Origin: Morinoia aosen
Taxonomy: Eukaryota > Arthropoda > Malacostraca > Amphipoda > Talitridae
Length of the DNA stretch: 64,000 bases
Assembly: GCA_030386875.1 (NCBI GenBank)
Contig: CM059576.1
Location: 20,186,558 to 20,250,557, forward strand
Direction of reading: 5' to 3'
This document shows, in pieces, positions 7,050-64,000 of this stretch (its first letter is position 1; every line of letters begins with the position of its first letter). A program made the position numbers and the translations under genes. The notes beneath the pieces were generated by a model. It searched no databases. It had not been told where the DNA came from and saw only the letters and a list, made by a program, of their open reading frames with translations.

Positions 7050-7899
7050 TGTTGTGTCCCGAATACGAACCGTTAAGTTTTCGCCACAAAAAAGAGTAAA
7101 GGGCGGTTGGACGTGAGAGCTTACACCGAACTCTGCTATCAAGAAATCTCAATGCTCAGCAGTATACAACGCGCCAGATGTCGATGTGTACCCAGCGAGG
7201 GCTCGACCGTTACAAAAAAGAGGCAACACCGGCTCCCAGGGGCAGCGTGGCAGGACGGCAACAGCGGATGGCAACAGCGTGGCACCAGCATGGCACCAAC
7301 ATGGCATCAGCGTGGCACCAGTGTGGCAGCGGACGGCAACAGCAGATAGCAACGGCTGGCGCTGCTACCCGAAGGCGCGTCTGGGCCTAAGCGACGAGAC
7401 CGGGGGCGTCAACTTCAACGGCTATGATCAGCCGCGGTAACTCCTGCAGCACGACAGCTACTTAAAGGGTTCGACGAGGGTTAGGGCATCATCATTATAG
7501 AGCGTAACTCCGACGTTAGAAGGTCTCATCGTGCCACTTCATTAGATGTGTTGAATTTGCATACGGCGAGGCACTCCGTATTTGACCCCGATTCTGTGTT
7601 AACGTCACGTAATAATTTAACGTACAATTCGAGACCTTAATATTACCCTCCGTCATCGCTGCATATCCAAAGTTGCGTGAGACCCTCGTAACAATTGTTC
7701 CTATATATATTTGCTAGTCTCATCTACCCCATTGTCATATTTTGTGTACACCTTTCATCATAACAAGTAAAAATGACGTGGCCACGTTGAAAGAATCGTG
7801 TTTTCTTTCGGAAAATAACTCCTTTGATTTTTAGACTTGAAAAGATGAAAAAAATGTGAAAAACCTTGAACTTGGATTTGAAAAAAAAGTAGTATAACA
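7050..7899 (+). repeat. 5' LTR, 850 bp
   Basis: Starts TGTTGTGTCCCG and ends AGTATAACA. It matches 14843-15692 at a constant offset of 7793. It contains a short run of GCGTGGCACCA-like repeats (about 7255-7345) that keeps several frames open by chance. Confidence 0.93.
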
Positions 7900-14842: not shown

Positions 14843-15692
14843 TGTTGTGTCCCGAATACGAACCGTTAAGTTTTCGCCACAAAAAAGAGTAAAGGGCGGT
14901 TGGACGTGAGAGCTTACACCGAACTCTGCTATCAAGAAATCTCAATGCTCAGCAGTATACAACGCGCCAGATGTCGATGTGTACCCAGCGAGGGCTCGAC
15001 CGTTACAAAAAAGAGGCAACACCGGCTCCCAGGGGCAGCGTGGCAGGACGGCAACAGCGGATGGCAACAGCGTGGCACCAGCATGGCACCAACATGGCAT
15101 CAGCGTGGCACCAGTGTGGCAGCGGACGGCAACAGCAGATAGCAACGGCTGGCGCTGCTACCCGAAGGCGCGTCTGGGCCTAAGCGACGAGACCGGGGCC
15201 GTCAACTTCAACGGCTATGATCAGCCGCGGTAACTCCTGCAGCACGACAGCTACTTAAAGGGTTCGACGAGGGTTAGGGCATCATCATTATAGAGCGTAA
15301 CTCCGACGTTAGAAGGTCTCATCGTGCCACTTCATTAGATGTGTTGAATTTGCATACGGCGAGGCACTCCGTATTTGACCCCGATTCTGTGTTAACGTCA
15401 CGTAATAATTTAACGTACAATTCGAGACCTTAATATTACCCTCCGTCATCGCTGCATATCCAAAGTTGCGTGAGACCCTCGTAACAATTGTTCCTATGTA
15501 TATTTGCTAGTCTCATCTACCCCATTGTCATATTTTGTGTACACCTTTCATCATAACAAGTAAAAATGACGTGGCCACGTTGAAAGAATCGTGTTTTCTT
15601 TCGGAAAATAACTCCTTTGATTTTTAGACTTGAAAAGATGAAAAAAATGTGAAAAACCTTGAACTTGGATTTGAAAAAAAAGTAGTATAACA
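14843..15692 (+). repeat. 3' LTR, 850 bp
   Basis: Matches the 5' LTR except at 15199 and 15498. It is followed by the CCGT target duplication at 15693-15696. Confidence 0.93.
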
Positions 15693-22992: not shown

Positions 22993-24430
22993 CAGGGTGC
23001 GTACAGGCATGGAGAAGCATGGAAAGTAGTTGAATTTCGAAAATAAAATTCAAGGCCTCGAAAGTAGTGGAATTTTAAAAATGGTCATTGAAAGTCATGA
23101 AATTTTGATCAAGATTTTGAAGGTTCTGTTGGAGAGGTGTGTGAAAGCAGAGGTGCTGGAAAAACTGACCACACCAGCTAAGTATGCTGCCCTTGACTTC
23201 AATGACAAGACCATCTACATGCAAAATAGCAAGATTGACCCTGGCTTTGTTGCTGCAAGTATTTTGAAAGATCAGATGGCTGCAAAGAAAGTGAATGAGA
23301 GGCTTGCTTTCTCCTTCAGGGATGATGTGAAGAATTTCCTTGTTGCTGTCATCAAGAAGATTGTTGAGAAGTCACCTTTGAAGTTCGGGTTGGCCCGAAA
23401 CATGGGCTGGCTGGTGCCAAGTGTCTTTGTGGATCGCACAAAGAGAGAGAAGACCAAGTCCATGCTGAAAAACTGTCTGCAGCTGCTCAGCGATGCTAAG
23501 AGGCTACCACAGGGTGACATCGATGAGGTGATGAGCCAGTTTTCAGAGTTCTTTGATGAGGCACAGAGGAAGATCAGCACTTTCAACAGTTTTCAGCAAG
23601 ACACTGATTGGCTAGATGTCTTCTGGAGCAGCCAGCTGGCCACATCCTCCCTCAAGAAACTGTGGCTGGTTGTGAAGATGCTACTGGTCCTGTCACATGG
23701 CCAGGCTTCAGTGGAAAGGGGCTTTTCTGTGAGCAAGCAGCTCATGGAAGTCAACATGGGTGAGAACACCATCGTGGCGCAGAGAGTGGTCATGGACCAC
23801 ATCAAACATTTAGGAGGTATCTCCAAGGTTGACATTTCCAAGAAACTCCTCTTTTCAGCTTCACATGGCAGACAGCGCTATCAACACTACCTGGATCAAA
23901 AGAAGGAAGAGGCAGAGAAGCAGAAGAAGGGAGAGAAGAGGAAGAGAGAACTGGATGAAGTGGAGAACCTGAAGACAAAACGGAAGAGGATGGAGGAGAG
24001 TCTGCAAGCGCTGGTGGAGGATGCTGACAGCTTTGCACGGAAGGCAGAGGACAAGAATGATTTGCGCCTACTGGCAAAGTCAAATGCATTGAGGAAATCA
24101 GCCAAAGACGAGCAAGAACAACTCAAGGGGCTGAATGCGGAAATTAATGACAAACTTAATGCACTGGCAAATGCATAGCAGATGCTATTGAACTGTCCAG
24201 CATGACTGTTTGGTGTTGTGATGATCATTTACACATTTATGAAAACAAGACCTGCAAGTAATGATGAATGTTCTGTGAAGTTTATGACTGAAATACATTT
24301 ATTGTGCTGCAATTTAACTTTGTGTGACATTATTTTGGGCAGAGAGAGGTAGTGAAAATGTGATTTGGTTGGCATAAAAAGTCATGAAAAAGTAGTGGAA
24401 TTTTGAACCTCAGAGCCTGTACGCACCCTG
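22993..24430 (+). mobile_element. hAT-like DNA transposon, internally deleted, 1438 bp
   Basis: Perfect 15-bp ends, CAGGGTGCGTACAGG at the left and its complement at the right (24416-24430), followed inward by catgga/agtagtgga motifs. The flanking 6 bp TATATG is present on both sides (22987-22992, 24431-24436), shorter than the 8 bp usual for hAT. The interior encodes only the C-terminal part of a transposase. Confidence 0.75.
23030..24178 (+). pseudogene. hAT-family transposase, C-terminal fragment
   Basis: Continuous frame of 382 codons ending TAG 24176-24178. The first 25-30 codons read through the terminal repeat; recognisable protein begins near 23110. The stretch WSSQLATSSLKKLWLVVKML, followed by LSHGQASVERGFSVSKQ (about residues 208-240), is the hAT C-terminal dimerisation region. 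After it comes a highly charged coiled coil (about residues 285-380, with KKEEAEKQKKGEKRKRE). A complete hAT transposase has 600 or more residues with an N-terminal BED finger and a split DDE domain, none of which is here, so the copy cannot transpose itself. The intact frame may reflect recent deletion, or use as a dimerising repressor-like protein (speculative). Confidence 0.7.
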
Positions 24431-24933: not shown

Positions 24934-25644
24934 ATGGCTGAAGTTTTTGACTGTGATATTTGTGATGATACATATAATGAGACTGGAAGAAAACCTCTCG
25001 TGTGGCTCTGTGGCCACACGTACTGCCAGCAGTGCCTTCATAACGTGGTGTCAGGAAGCAGCCCAGCGTGCCCCTCCTGCAGGAAGGAGATTGTGACTCC
25101 AGTGGATGAGTTGCCTGTTGTATTTGCATTAATTCCTCCCACCGGGTCCAGAAAAGCAGCCTCAAAAAGTGAGGTCAACAAAGAATTGTCTTGCCGAGCT
25201 CATCAAAACGAATTGGACTATTGGTGCATGCGATGCCAAATTTCAATTTGCAAACGATGTCTGGTTGAGTCTCATGCTGATCATAAGTTGACTCTAATTG
25301 AAGAAATGGTTACTGACAAAAAGCTACTATCTGATAAAAAAGATCAAATTGCTGCTGAATTGCAACAGACTAAAGCCTCTATTGAGACTTTACAGCTGTT
25401 AGAATCTGTGGGTAGTAAAATTGATGAGAGTAAGAGTGAAATTATAGGAAAGAAAAATTCTCTGCAAATGAAGCAATTAATCCTGAGAGAATGGGTTGAT
25501 GTGTTGGAGAAAATTTCATCAGAACCCTCACAAAAGCAAGTTAGTGTTGTGGTGAAGATTCTCAAATATCAAACTCCAGCACTGACTGAAGCCAGCATCC
25601 ATGGTGCACTGGAGGAAATCAATAACTGGGTCTTACAACTCCAG
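24934..25644 (+). CDS. TRIM-like RING/B-box protein, coding exon 1
   Basis: 237 codons from ATG 24934 to the donor CAG|GTGAGC at 25645. Residues 7-49 form a complete C3HC4 RING finger (C7, C10, C26, H28, C31, C34, C46, C49), the domain that recruits E2 enzymes in ubiquitin ligases. Residues 87-117 form a B-box type 2 zinc finger (C87, H90, C98, C101, C106, C109, H114, H117). A probable coiled coil follows (about 120-200), giving the RING/B-box/coiled-coil order of the TRIM family. The exon ends in phase 0, and the next exon joins without a frame break. Read past the donor it would stop at 25702-25704, which could give a short intron-retained form. It is the only host gene I can support in the window; function beyond likely E3 ubiquitin ligase is unknown. 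Confidence 0.88.
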
Positions 25645-33797: not shown

Positions 33798-34120
33798 GTG
33801 AGCACCAAGCCTGATGAAATGCCAGACAAACCATTTGAGACCCACATGACTGATGGTCACCCTTGGGTTATCATCTCCAATGAGCTGGCAGAAAAAGCTT
33901 TGTGCACCATGAAGGAGACTGACCACCAGACTCCTAAAGCCACTGTGATATCCACTGATGAGAGCCCAATACTGTGCCTCCCAGAGCTGCTACAGTATCT
34001 GGCTGCCTCAAGTGCTACCATGGAGCTGCAGCTTATGGATAGAGCTGTGAAAAATCCATATAAAAAAGACTGGCTTCCTCTGAAAGCAGGAGATGATGAG
34101 TCAACAAACTTCAATCATCG
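33798..34120 (+). CDS. TRIM-like RING/B-box protein, coding exon 2
   Basis: 323 nt from acceptor tgtgtgcag|GTGAGC (AG 33796-33797) to donor CG|GTAAGAA (34121). It enters in phase 0 and leaves two bases (CG) over. It encodes about 107 residues beginning VSTKPDEMPDKPFETH, moderately acidic, with no zinc ligands or motif I recognise. It joins exon 1 after LQLQ. Open frame and both splice signals support it; function is unknown. Confidence 0.8.
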
Positions 34121-34286: not shown

Positions 34287-34314
34287 CAGGGTTGCGGAGT
34301 CGGTGGAATAAATT

Positions 34315-34590
34315 TGCGACTCCGACTCCGACTCCACCTTTCCAGAATTTGGCGACTCCGACTCCGACTCCGACTCCACCTTTTCAGAATTCGGCGACTC
34401 CGACTCCGACTCCGACTCCACCTTTTCAGAATTGCGCGACTCCAACTCCGACTCCGACTCCACCTTTTCAGAATTTGGCGACTCCGACTCCGACTCCGAC
34501 TCCATTTCTCCAGAATTTGGCGACTCCAACACCGACTCCGCCTATTCACAATTTTGTGACTCCAACTTCACCTATTCATAATTTATAAGA
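34315..34590. repeat. GACTCC subterminal array, left
   Basis: Blocks of 2-4 GACTCC hexamers alternate with accttttcagaatttggc-type spacers (period about 54 bp). The regularity opens several frames (Ser-Glu, Arg-Ser or Thr-Pro repeats), which I do not consider genes. Confidence 0.85.
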
Positions 34591-46173: not shown

Positions 46174-46319
46174 TTACAGGTTGAAAACTTTGTCAAAGTC
46201 GTTGGTTTACTTCCAAACCTTGACTGCTGCTCTGGCTGCCGTTGATTGTGTTGCTAATGATGCTGCCGAAAACAAGGTGATCGTCCTCTTATATCCTGCT
46301 ACTCGCACCTATGATGTCT
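46174..46319 (+). CDS. TRIM-like RING/B-box protein, coding exon 3
   Basis: 146 nt from acceptor tctaattttccag (AG 46172-46173) to donor T|GTGAGT (46320). The first base completes the split codon left by exon 2, and one base is left over for exon 4. It encodes about 49 residues, alpha-helical and Ala/Val-rich, ending PATRTYDV. A second AG at 46178-46179 (ttacag) is also in frame and would remove two residues, a tandem acceptor. No recognised domain. Confidence 0.8.
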
Positions 46320-49706: not shown

Positions 49707-49860
49707 GTGTGTTGGCATTCGGAAAGATTGTTAAAGGCAACACGGGGTTCTGGCCCCTGCCTCTCGAGGTCCATGTCATGGGGATGGATAACTGGCTACA
49801 CATGGAGTGGGTGAAGTGCATCCTGCCGTCCCTGTACTACATTGCCCAGCCGGACATGGG
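49707..49860 (+). CDS. TRIM-like RING/B-box protein, coding exon 4
   Basis: 154 nt from acceptor acttcatcag (AG 49705-49706) to donor GGG|GTGAGT (49861). Joined in phase with exon 3 it gives CVLAFGKIVKGNTGFW and a Trp-rich stretch (MDNWLHMEWVKCILPSLYY). GC content is higher than in the introns, as expected for coding DNA. It leaves two bases (GG) over. I do not recognise the domain. Confidence 0.82.
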
Positions 49861-50275: not shown

Positions 50276-51267
50276 AAATAGATAAGAATTATAAGGAATG
50301 TTCACACAAAGTATATAAATATATATTTATAGCATTTATGCAAATTATTACGGTAAAGGTTGTAGAAGTACAGGAATCATTAAAATAGAGGGAAATTAGC
50401 GATATAACTGCAGCACCGGTAGTCAGGACACAAAGAAGGCCCACGCGACGAGGGTCATCACACAAATACAGTTGTAACTTACACAAATGTAACTGCCAGC
50501 GCTGCAAGTGTTGCGTTCAGTTGTGGCAGGCGTCAGTTTGCCGTCACTCGTGCGGTCTTCCAATGACCATCAGCAAGTCACGAGGACAATCTTGTCGCGT
50601 GTTGGTGTCTACTTGCCAGCCCTGTGTTGGCTCACGGACAGCTGCGTCTTGCGTTTGGTGCCGCACAAAATCTATATGATCTCAAATTGGCGTTGAGAGA
50701 AAATACTATCACGGGAATCTTGAAGACTAATTAGGCATGAAAATATATCGTAAGATATACCTTGAGCTTGCGTAGTATCAGGGAGGAAGTGGGATGGCAG
50801 CAAAGCTGTGGTGCGGGAGTTTATGAGCACTGGAGGGTAACGCAGAATGTAGAGCGTGTATTGTGCATATAGGCTTGTGCTGCAGTTGTTGCTTAGCTCT
50901 AAACTTTATGTTGGGTTCCAGTACTCGAGGTTTATATCTTCTAATGATAGTGTCACTTTAGTTCCTGTATTTTTATTTCAGTCATTACTGAACAACAGCA
51001 GCACAAGTACTATTTCTATTTTGAATGTTTTAGTTAAATTTTGGGTATAGCTCAATAATGTGTCTATGTACCGTCCTATTTAATGGCCCGGTAATGTAAT
51101 TACTTGGTTATTTTAGTTAATATTTGTATGGCACCACTAGTGTTAGCTGTTGGCTTTTCTAGGATTGATGTTACAGGACCAAGCTCCTGCTCGAGTGCCA
51201 CTCATGCAATGCCTGTCTTCTGCATTTGCCCTTCTCAACACACCCACTCTCACCGCTGGCTGCGTCT

Positions 51268-51795
51268 CGAGTGACTCGTGGAGAGCAACTTTGTAATCCC
51301 ATTGTTTTGTTCCAGCGAGTGACTCGTGGAGAGCAACTTTGTAATCCCATTGTTTTGTTCCAGCGAGTGACTCGTGGAGAGCAACTTTGTAATCCCATTG
51401 TTTTGTTCCAGCGAGTGACTCGTGGAGAGCAACTTTCTAATCCCATTGTTTTGTTCCAGCGAGTGACTCGTGGAGAGCAACTTTGTAATCCCATTGTTTT
51501 GTTCCAGCGAGTGACTCGTGGAGAGCAACTTTGTAATCCCATTGTTTTGTTCCAGCGAGTGACTCGTGGAGAGCAACTTTGTAATCCCATTGTTTTGTTG
51601 CAGCGAGTGACTCTTGGAGAGCAACTTTGTAATCCCATTGTTTTGTTCCAGCGAGTGACTCGTGGAGAGCAACTTGGTAATTCCATTCTTTTGTTCCAGC
51701 GAGTGACTCGTGGAGAGCAACTTCGTAATCCCATTGTTTTGTTCCAGCGAGTGGCTCATGGAGAGCAACTTTGTGATCCCATTGTTTTGTTCCAG
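51268..51795 (+). repeat. 48-bp minisatellite, 11 units, carrying duplicated 3' splice sites
   Basis: Eleven exact-length 48-bp units begin at 51268, 51316, 51364, and so on to 51748, and end where the last coding exon starts (51796). Each begins cgagtg, like the exon itself, and ends with a pyrimidine-rich attgttttgttccag acceptor. The last intron therefore has eleven nearly identical 3' splice sites in a row. Units differ by few bases (one has gttgcag; the last begins cgagtggctcatgg). Confidence 0.92.
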
Positions 51796-51997
51796 CGAGT
51801 GCCGCGTGTACCTGCCGGAGAACAGCGATGAAGTCGAAGAAAGTGACCTGTTCCCCGTGTTGGCTGAGCTTGGCATGAAGTTCTCCACGCAACACCGCCT
51901 GTACTTTCTTGCTGGTTCATTTCCTGATGGTCGGAAGCCTGATTATCGCCGAGCGGCCGAGGAACACAAGCTCGCCCTGGAATTCAGGGACTGGTGA
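51796..51997 (+). CDS. TRIM-like RING/B-box protein, last coding exon
   Basis: 202 nt including TGA at 51995-51997. The first base completes the GG left by exon 4; the frame then encodes about 66 residues beginning ECRVYLPENSDEVEESD and ending ALEFRDW. It has an acidic patch, then a basic stretch (DGRKPDYRRAAEEHKL). The total for the five exons is 1536 nt, exactly 511 residues plus stop. The acceptor is the final copy in the 48-bp array. The one before it (51748) would also keep the frame and add 16 residues; the nine earlier acceptors would give a stop after one or two codons. Confidence 0.85.
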
Positions 51998-52414
51998 ATT
52001 CGGTCGCAGTTATGATCACGTGGCGACATGCTGGTCACCTACACGTGGTGCGGTGTTGTGTGCGCTGGTAAACCGCTCCAGCATTTCCCCACTTATTTAT
52101 TTTTAACTCATTCAATTATTCATTTTTATATTACTTAAAATCGTAATTTCGGTTCATTGCTGTTGTTTTTAGCTTCAAAACCCAATACCAAGTATTGGTA
52201 AATAATTGGTGATACTTGTTCTTCATTAATGGCCATTTTAATTATTTTAGAGCATGAAACCATGATTCATCAAATATTTGCTCAAAATTTCATTAACTGA
52301 TCACCAGTTCAATTATTTTTAATCCCAAAACCAAGATTTATTAAATAATTGCTCACCATTTCATGAATTAATTACAATTTTAATCATTGGTAATCCAGAA
52401 ATCATGAATTATTA
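51998..52414 (+). other. Probable 3' UTR / downstream, with diverged AT-rich tandem repeats
   Basis: No further coding. About 52180-52425 consists of diverged repeats of roughly 80 bp (caccagttcaattatttttaa, attaaataattgctcacc). ATTAAA at 52340-52345 and AATAAA at 52498-52503 are possible poly(A) signals, both inside repeats and unproven. Confidence 0.45.
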
Positions 52415-53240
52415 GATCACTAGTTTACACGACCCTTTAAAAATGACGGGATTCGAAAGTTTCTGTAGACAAATCCTCCAGATGTGGATGACAAACAAAT
52501 AAATCCATCCTAATATTCCCTGCTTGTACTTGTGTACTGGGGAAACTCTCATCACACATACGGTCATTAGTATCACAGATACCGTCATTAGTATCACAGA
52601 TACCGTCATTAGTATCACAGATACGGTCATTAGTATCACAGATACGATTAGTATCACAGATACGGCCATTAGTATCACAGATACGGTCATTAGTATCACA
52701 GATACGGTCATTAGTATCACAGATACGGTCATTAGTATCACAGATACGGTCATTAGTATCACAGATACGGTCATTAGTATCACAGATACGGTCATTAGTA
52801 TCACAGATTCGGTCATTAGTATCACAGATACGGCCATTAGTATCACAGATACTATCAATAGTATACTATCATACTATCAATAGATAGTATCAATAGTATC
52901 ACAAATACGGTCATTAAGCATCCTTTTAAGAACGTGATAGAGACACGTTCCAACCAACAACTGTGTATCCATACTTTTTATTTTTATTAGCCAAGAAGCT
53001 TATAAAAAAATATGCTATATCTTTTTTATTGCGATAAGCTGCACTTTATTTACAATCGATTCAATTTTCCCGCAATTTTTCTTACCTTAAAAGCACAAGT
53101 TAGCAAATGCCTGTTTTTTTGGTATCTATTCAAAACGATCGAGCAGGTCCCCATTGTAATTATGTAGGAGAAGATACGCAGTAAAAATTTATTTATTTAT
53201 TAATTTATGGAAACGCCTGGTGTTCTATTGCATGGTGCTA
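52415..53240 (+). repeat. ACTAGTGTAC family repeat, copy 2
   Basis: Aligns with 35235-36150 and, inverted, with 37965-38160. It differs in that the single gtatcacagatacggtcatta unit is expanded to about 14 copies here. Confidence 0.65.
52561..52855. repeat. 21-bp minisatellite, about 14 units
   Basis: Units of cggtcattagtatcacagata, with a few substitutions and one 3-bp-shorter unit near 52645. Each has the dyad GTATC-ACA-GATAC. Because 21 is a multiple of three, frames stay open on both strands without being genes. Confidence 0.9.

Positions 53241-64000
<10,760 letters not shown>

Follow-up and report, generated by a model that had tools for sequence, protein, structure and literature searches.

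Eleven tandem copies of a candidate 3′ splice site precede the predicted last exon of a TRIM-like gene in the amphipod Morinoia aosen

The predicted last exon of a TRIM-like gene of Morinoia aosen is preceded by a minisatellite of eleven 48-bp units, each of which ends in a candidate 3′ splice site for that exon. The array belongs to the known splice-junction minisatellites, and is set apart by its high copy number and by an unusual coding consequence: nine of its acceptors would lead to an early stop codon. In the reading that we prefer, with a probability of about 0.55, it is a junction minisatellite of the kind called 'mirage' in amphioxus that arose by slippage, and the gene is spliced mostly at 51796 (perhaps also at 51748) with some leakage to the acceptors upstream. 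The analysis covers a stretch of 64,000 nucleotides, here called the window (assembly GCA_030386875.1, contig CM059576.1, positions 20,186,558 to 20,250,557 of the forward strand). Coordinates are counted from its first base.

The predicted host gene

The gene model comprises five predicted coding exons on the + strand, with compatible phases and a product of 509 aa:

24934..25644, + strand, exon 1 (coding part), predicted; RING and B-box; taken from the RING/B-box ORF
33798..34120, + strand, exon 2, predicted; best of a second splice scan limited to the phase still required
46180..46319 (or from 46174), + strand, exon 3, predicted; best candidate of the splice scan
49707..49860, + strand, exon 4, predicted; ATCAG/GTG ... 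ATGGG/GTGAGT, with a 2-base overhang GG; best candidate of the splice scan
51796..51997, + strand, exon 5, predicted last exon with the stop codon; junction of the original prediction

The splice scans used hand-set thresholds, and their codon score was trained on exons 1 and 5, which had already been taken as given. Exon 3 has two alternative acceptors 6 bases apart (starts 46174 and 46180), the choice of which adds or drops two residues.

A RING and a B-box are found at the N-terminus of the product (PF00643, 33.8 bits with a cut-off of 24.1; PF13445, 30.3 bits with a cut-off of 25.2). Likeness to solved TRIM structures falls within residues 1–236, with matches to TIF1-beta over residues 6–236 and to TRIM3 over residues 6–173. 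In TRIM proteins the B-box is followed by a coiled coil, the element for which these two matches were considered. Beyond residue 121 there is no Pfam match at E ≤ 0.1 and hence no known TRIM C-terminal domain, which is why we call the product TRIM-like. A B30.2 or NHL-type domain occupies the C-terminus of many TRIM proteins, though not all.

Searches for protein relatives were negative, both with the product lacking exon 2 (E ≤ 0.001; 7149 candidates) and with residues 345–509 (E ≤ 10; 1072 candidates). The support for the gene model is thus its open frames, the splice consensus and the fit of the phases. A frame such as that of exon 2 (321 nt) is open in 1 of 3615 segments sampled between 25701 and 51000, exons included, and one such as that of exon 5 (198 nt) in 66 of 3615. 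The open frame of exon 5 suggests that this exon is still translated.

Organization of the array

Tandem Repeats Finder reports one tandem array at 51268–51808, with a period of 48, 11.3 copies, 96% match, 0% indels and a score of 998. The features used below are:

51268..51795, + strand, minisatellite of 11 × 48 bp (Tandem Repeats Finder and unit table)
51316, 51364, 51412, 51460, 51508, 51556, 51604, 51652 and 51700 (first exon bases), + strand, nine duplicate acceptors, giving Gly-Glu-TGA after exon 4
51748..51795, + strand, last unit, with TGG replacing TGA (unit table and frame reading)

The original prediction had described eleven 48-bp units, each with a polypyrimidine stretch and a CAG followed by CGAGTG, and both the repeat finder and the unit table bear this out. 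Each unit consists of a CGAGTGACTCGTG-like start, GAGAGCAAC, a branch-point candidate, a polypyrimidine tract and CAG, with CGAGTG at the start and CAG at the end in all eleven. Five units (1, 2, 3, 5 and 6) are identical to the consensus. The other six together contain 10 substitutions, none common to two units: one each in units 4, 7, 8 and 10, and three each in units 9 and 11. The five units on the exon side hold nine of the ten substitutions, three of them in the last unit (binomial 0.005, post hoc), and the edge unit on the intron side is equal to the consensus. Since the substitutions are gathered in this way, the intron-side units probably spread later than the exon-side units.

The left edge of the array is exactly the exon-like CGAGTG, and the right edge extends 13 bases into exon 5. 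These first 13 bases of the exon match the start of the unit at 11 positions (chance about 1.1e-5, for one fixed comparison). The proposed likeness between the junction within the units and that of the last exon is thus confirmed, and it is wider than the CGAGTG on which it had been based. The left flank of the array matches the end of the unit at 1 of 13 positions.

Outside the array, neither strand of the window contains any 14-mer of the unit. An exact search of a viral collection with 24 bases from the unit found nothing, as expected, and the window contains no Rfam family and no tRNA. A second + frame is open across the array, in an ORF at 51169–51831 that encodes RVTRGEQLCNPIVLFQ repeats. 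The consensus unit is also open in all three minus frames; we calculate that chance alone leaves any one frame of a 16-codon unit open with a probability of about 0.46.

Reading frames from each acceptor

The eleven array acceptors directly follow the eleven CAGs, from 51316 to 51796 in steps of 48 nt, and all are in a single phase because 48 is a multiple of three. Continued from the frame of exon 4, the acceptors from 51316 to 51700 give a predicted protein of 444 aa that lacks the 65 C-terminal residues. The acceptor at 51748 is predicted to add 16 in-frame residues (525 aa), and that at 51796 to give the product of 509 aa. The same three outcomes (Gly-Glu-stop from nine acceptors, an in-frame extension from the tenth and the standard protein from the last) had been claimed originally, and our frame reading agrees. 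When three random changes are placed in the unit, TGA is removed in 15.9% of trials and the unit becomes fully open in 15.0%. As some 15–16% of random triples of changes do likewise, the loss of the stop in unit 11 is no evidence of selection.

Origin of the array

The array consists of eleven whole units plus one extra 13-base direct repeat, which lies in exon 5. Slippage between direct repeats is favored by this arrangement because an interval that is simply duplicated should yield complete units only. We consider it likely, from the layout of the repeat, that the array originated by slippage or unequal exchange between direct repeats at the end of the intron and the start of the exon. The putative starting point is a pair of short direct repeats (CGAGTG, or a longer stretch in which 11 of 13 bases match) that would have stood 48 nt apart, one near the end of intron 4 and the other where exon 5 begins. 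Slippage at this pair, or unequal exchange, would then have produced eleven copies of the 48-bp interval and, in each, of the branch-point candidate, the polypyrimidine tract and the CAG. The unit had been proposed to arise by duplication across the intron/exon border; the place of origin stands, and the mechanism is refined to slippage between short direct repeats.

Tandem repeats are frequent in this region. They make up 2114 of the 26353 bases (8.0%) of 25645–51997 with the 541 bases of the array included, and 6.0% without the array. With a uniform model, the probability of one or more of the 8 splice sites lying in a repeat is 0.49 (0.39 without the array). At such a repeat density it is unremarkable that a repeat touches a splice site; what is remarkable is that the unit contains the site.

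Neighboring repeats and mobile elements

A tract of CTG repeats on the sense strand of the gene spans 53358–64000, at least 10.6 kb, and runs past the end of the window. It begins ~1.36 kb beyond the predicted stop codon, and its first 1702 repeats are unbroken. If real, it is an extremely long repeat just downstream of the gene; an assembly error is possible. Fifteen copies of a 21-bp repeat lie at 52551–52864, after the stop codon and before the CTG tract. Upstream of the gene, two 850-bp direct repeats (7050–7899 and 14843–15692) are 99.8% identical, with 2 mismatches, and flank ORFs for reverse transcriptase and integrase. The repeat pair and the ORFs probably represent a recently inserted LTR retrotransposon. 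An ORF at 23030–24178 has 148 protein matches, and fish, molluscs, a holothurian and Hydra are represented among the matches listed.

Acceptor strength and choice of site

Acceptors were scored with a generic weight matrix rather than one trained on this genome. On this matrix, all but two of the eleven array acceptors have a score of 8.73, which is in the top 2.1% of 1579 AG sites; the exceptions, at 51604 and 51700, score 8.39 and 10.11. The acceptors of the gene model score 7.53 (exon 2), 9.46 (exon 3, at 46180), 7.86 (exon 4) and 8.73 (exon 5). Five AGs in an unrelated array of intron 2 (34346, 34388, 34430, 34472 and 34514) score 9.63–10.58; since they outscore every acceptor of the model, the score alone is no proof of use. 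That array, at 34311–34567, has 42-bp units carrying TTTTCAG. Upstream of the minisatellite, the AG at 51163 scores 7.69 (rank 65 of 1579), near the acceptors of exons 2 and 4, and would give a protein of 479 aa with an early stop at the TGA of the first unit. The AG at 51177 scores 4.91 (rank 211) and would lead into the frame of the ORF at 51169–51831, open through all eleven units, for a product of 660 aa.

Every one of the eleven array acceptors comes with a 30-nt zone free of AG, in which there is a single branch-point candidate of the form nTNAY. The candidate is GTAAT at nine acceptors, CTAAT before 51460 and GTGAT before 51796, the last being the weakest of the array. With near-equal scores, and with an AG-free zone and a branch-point candidate of its own, each array acceptor could work alone.

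The predicted accessibility of the RNA was compared among the eleven acceptors under three settings. Both the tract (0.39–0.45 versus 0.47–0.67 for the other ten) and the branch region (0.43–0.53 versus 0.57–0.93) are predicted to be least accessible at 51796. The CAG at 51796 slightly exceeds all the others in predicted accessibility (0.38, 0.37 and 0.30 versus 0.27–0.37, 0.19–0.32 and 0.19–0.28). The predicted local accessibility gives no clear preference for any acceptor. The predicted fold of 51220–51900 is more stable than that of 20 of 20 shuffled sequences (z −3.84). Among arrays built from a shuffled unit, 3 of 40 fold at least as well as the real one, so the tandem form can explain much of this stability.

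Exon 5 carries purine-rich hexamers that resemble splicing enhancers:

51817..51842, + strand, purine-rich enhancer-like hexamers in exon 5 (motif list drawn up after exon 5 had been read)

Two further enhancer-like hexamers lie at 51876 and 51959, and the array contains none from the same list, which was compiled once exon 5 was known, includes words from that exon and is not a validated score. The purine-rich hexamers could favor the last acceptors, but with a list made in this way their absence from the array is weak support. Overall, local sequence hardly favors 51796 over the upstream acceptors. Splicing on a first-made, first-used basis would favor the upstream acceptors.

Splicing outcome and competing explanations

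In the preferred reading, the acceptors adjoining exon 5 (51796 and perhaps the in-frame 51748) would make most of the mRNA because they alone are closely followed by the full exon 5 with its own splicing signals. The acceptors farther upstream would be used to some extent and would then yield the 444-aa protein without the 65 C-terminal residues. Regular splicing is favored here because the precedents compared below show normal splicing or little use of duplicated sites. The features of the array itself are also compatible with a switch of the C-terminus, in which the upstream acceptors are much used, the 444-aa RING/B-box protein is the chief or a frequent product, its share is set by the number of units and its mRNA is stable. 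The ten upstream acceptors of the array score 8.39–10.11 as compared with 8.73 at 51796, every one of them has its branch-point candidate and AG-free zone, and it is 51796 that has the weakest branch candidate and the least accessible tract and branch region. The stop codon reached from the upstream sites is within the last exon of the model, and the truncated mRNA would therefore be stable. Against such a switch, splicing is reported as normal in the precedents, or the duplicate sites as little used whatever the length of the repeat, and exon 5 is still open, which suggests continued translation. We hold the switch to be unlikely. The idea can be carried further, to a hypermutable minisatellite that works as a heritable dial, perhaps one that also shifts in somatic cells: the count of near-equal acceptors would set the ratio of full-length to truncated RING/B-box protein without mRNA decay, and the stop-free unit on the exon side would keep the last two acceptors productive. 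To this we give little weight. An acceptor array serving as a copy-number dial was seen in none of the literature matches listed, which are mostly non-subscription papers.

The original proposal was a 'poison-acceptor' rheostat, by which the number of units could tune the amount of productive mRNA; taken as a mechanism of decay, the upstream junctions would cut that amount in proportion to the number of units. Nine of the eleven acceptors do lead to an early stop. In the model, however, this stop belongs to the last exon and has no junction downstream, and junction-based decay is not expected, although an intron in the 3′ UTR is possible. Use of the upstream sites would stretch the 3′ UTR from 500 nt to 791–1175 nt, provided that the transcript uses the AATAAA at 52498, and a longer 3′ UTR can trigger decay in some animals. 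An ATTAAA is also present at 52340. The human ABCA7 repeat offers arguments in both directions, since a longer VNTR went with lower expression but repeat length made no difference to the retention of a unit (PMC5954066). Given the position of the stop in the last exon, shortening of the protein, along with a longer 3′ UTR, is a more natural outcome than loss of mRNA, and we judge a rheostat acting through decay to be very improbable.

The gene might instead be silent or decaying, and the array a neutral by-product of a repeat-rich region. The 8.0% of tandem repeats in 25645–51997 and the 0.49 chance of a splice site in a repeat would fit this view, as would the LTR element, the pieces of transposase upstream of and inside the gene and the failure of the searches above to find a homologous protein. 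Decay is at odds with the state of the model: all five predicted exons are open, their splice sites are consensus-like, their phases fit, and an opening as long as the 321 nt of exon 2 was met in a single one of the 3615 samples. This alternative seems to us improbable. An artefact of assembly, in the number of units or in the array as a whole, is hardly credible. Assemblies often shorten or lengthen tandem arrays, and the window ends in the 10.6-kb CTG tract; one mis-assembled mirage is also mentioned in the amphioxus study (PMC3087553). Yet six of the eleven units have private substitutions, and an error would hardly set the start of the array in the phase of the exon. Mainly regular splicing with some leakage is the most likely outcome on these predictions, and the truncation switch is its main rival.

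Eleven near-identical acceptors within one intron and in one phase constitute a natural competition test of 3′ splice site choice by the spliceosome in a setting that gives it little local sequence to go by. If the number of units varies between individuals, the relation of isoform ratio to copy number could be read from long-read cDNA.

Comparison with known splice-junction repeats

The closest parallels are in amphioxus, where tandem copies of intron/exon boundaries, termed mirages, are described in Adh3 and in the globin genes BflGb6 and BflGb9, with TnC and PGBD5 also named (PMC3087553, PMC3902484). In BflGb6 the 3′ end of the intron and the start of the exon are copied, with 6 and 3 units in two haplotypes; the inner units are homogenized and the boundary unit is divergent, a case of edge exclusion (PMC3087553). 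The Adh3 mirage is reported to be somatically unstable, and RT-PCR and Adh3 data are taken to suggest that mirages leave regular splicing undisturbed (PMC3087553). The Adh and TnC mirages are described as generating no aberrant mRNAs (PMC3902484). The M. aosen array resembles these mirages in its minisatellite-like copies of a boundary (here a predicted one) and in the splice signals within its units. As in BflGb6, inner units are alike and an edge diverges, although here only on the exon side. The dimensions differ: 48 bp × 11 as compared with units of 150–160 bp in BflGb6 and 10–72 bp in Adh3. The present array is further distinguished from the mirages described in those reports by its position at a predicted last exon, by being in phase with the reading frame and by the stop codon in nine of its units. 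Duplicated boundaries in amphioxus have been proposed as a possible seed of new introns, a route that the array fits (PMC3087553).

Repeats at splice junctions, or tied to splicing, are also described in rainbow trout, humans and C. elegans. In intron 4 of rainbow trout irak3, the first 15–17 nt of exon 5 occur four times directly upstream of that exon (PMC6763605); the start of the exon is repeated just before it as in our array, in shorter and fewer copies. Human internal tandem repeats at exon–intron boundaries can alter splicing and, unlike the present array, are described as forming new introns in recent paralogues (PMC2812944). A minisatellite of C. elegans is tied to alternative splicing, and is described in terms other than copies of a splice site (PMC4039745). 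Intron 18 of human ABCA7 contains a VNTR of 25 bp whose start is an exon's splice site, and its copies add splice sites (PMC5954066). Retention of one unit is reported at 2 ± 1%, unaffected by VNTR size, whereas longer VNTRs go with more skipping of exon 19 and with lower expression (PMC5954066). Both repeats carry a splice site, at the donor side in ABCA7 and at the acceptor side in M. aosen. The length effect in ABCA7 indicates that a splice-site VNTR can act through its length, by a route different from the one proposed here.
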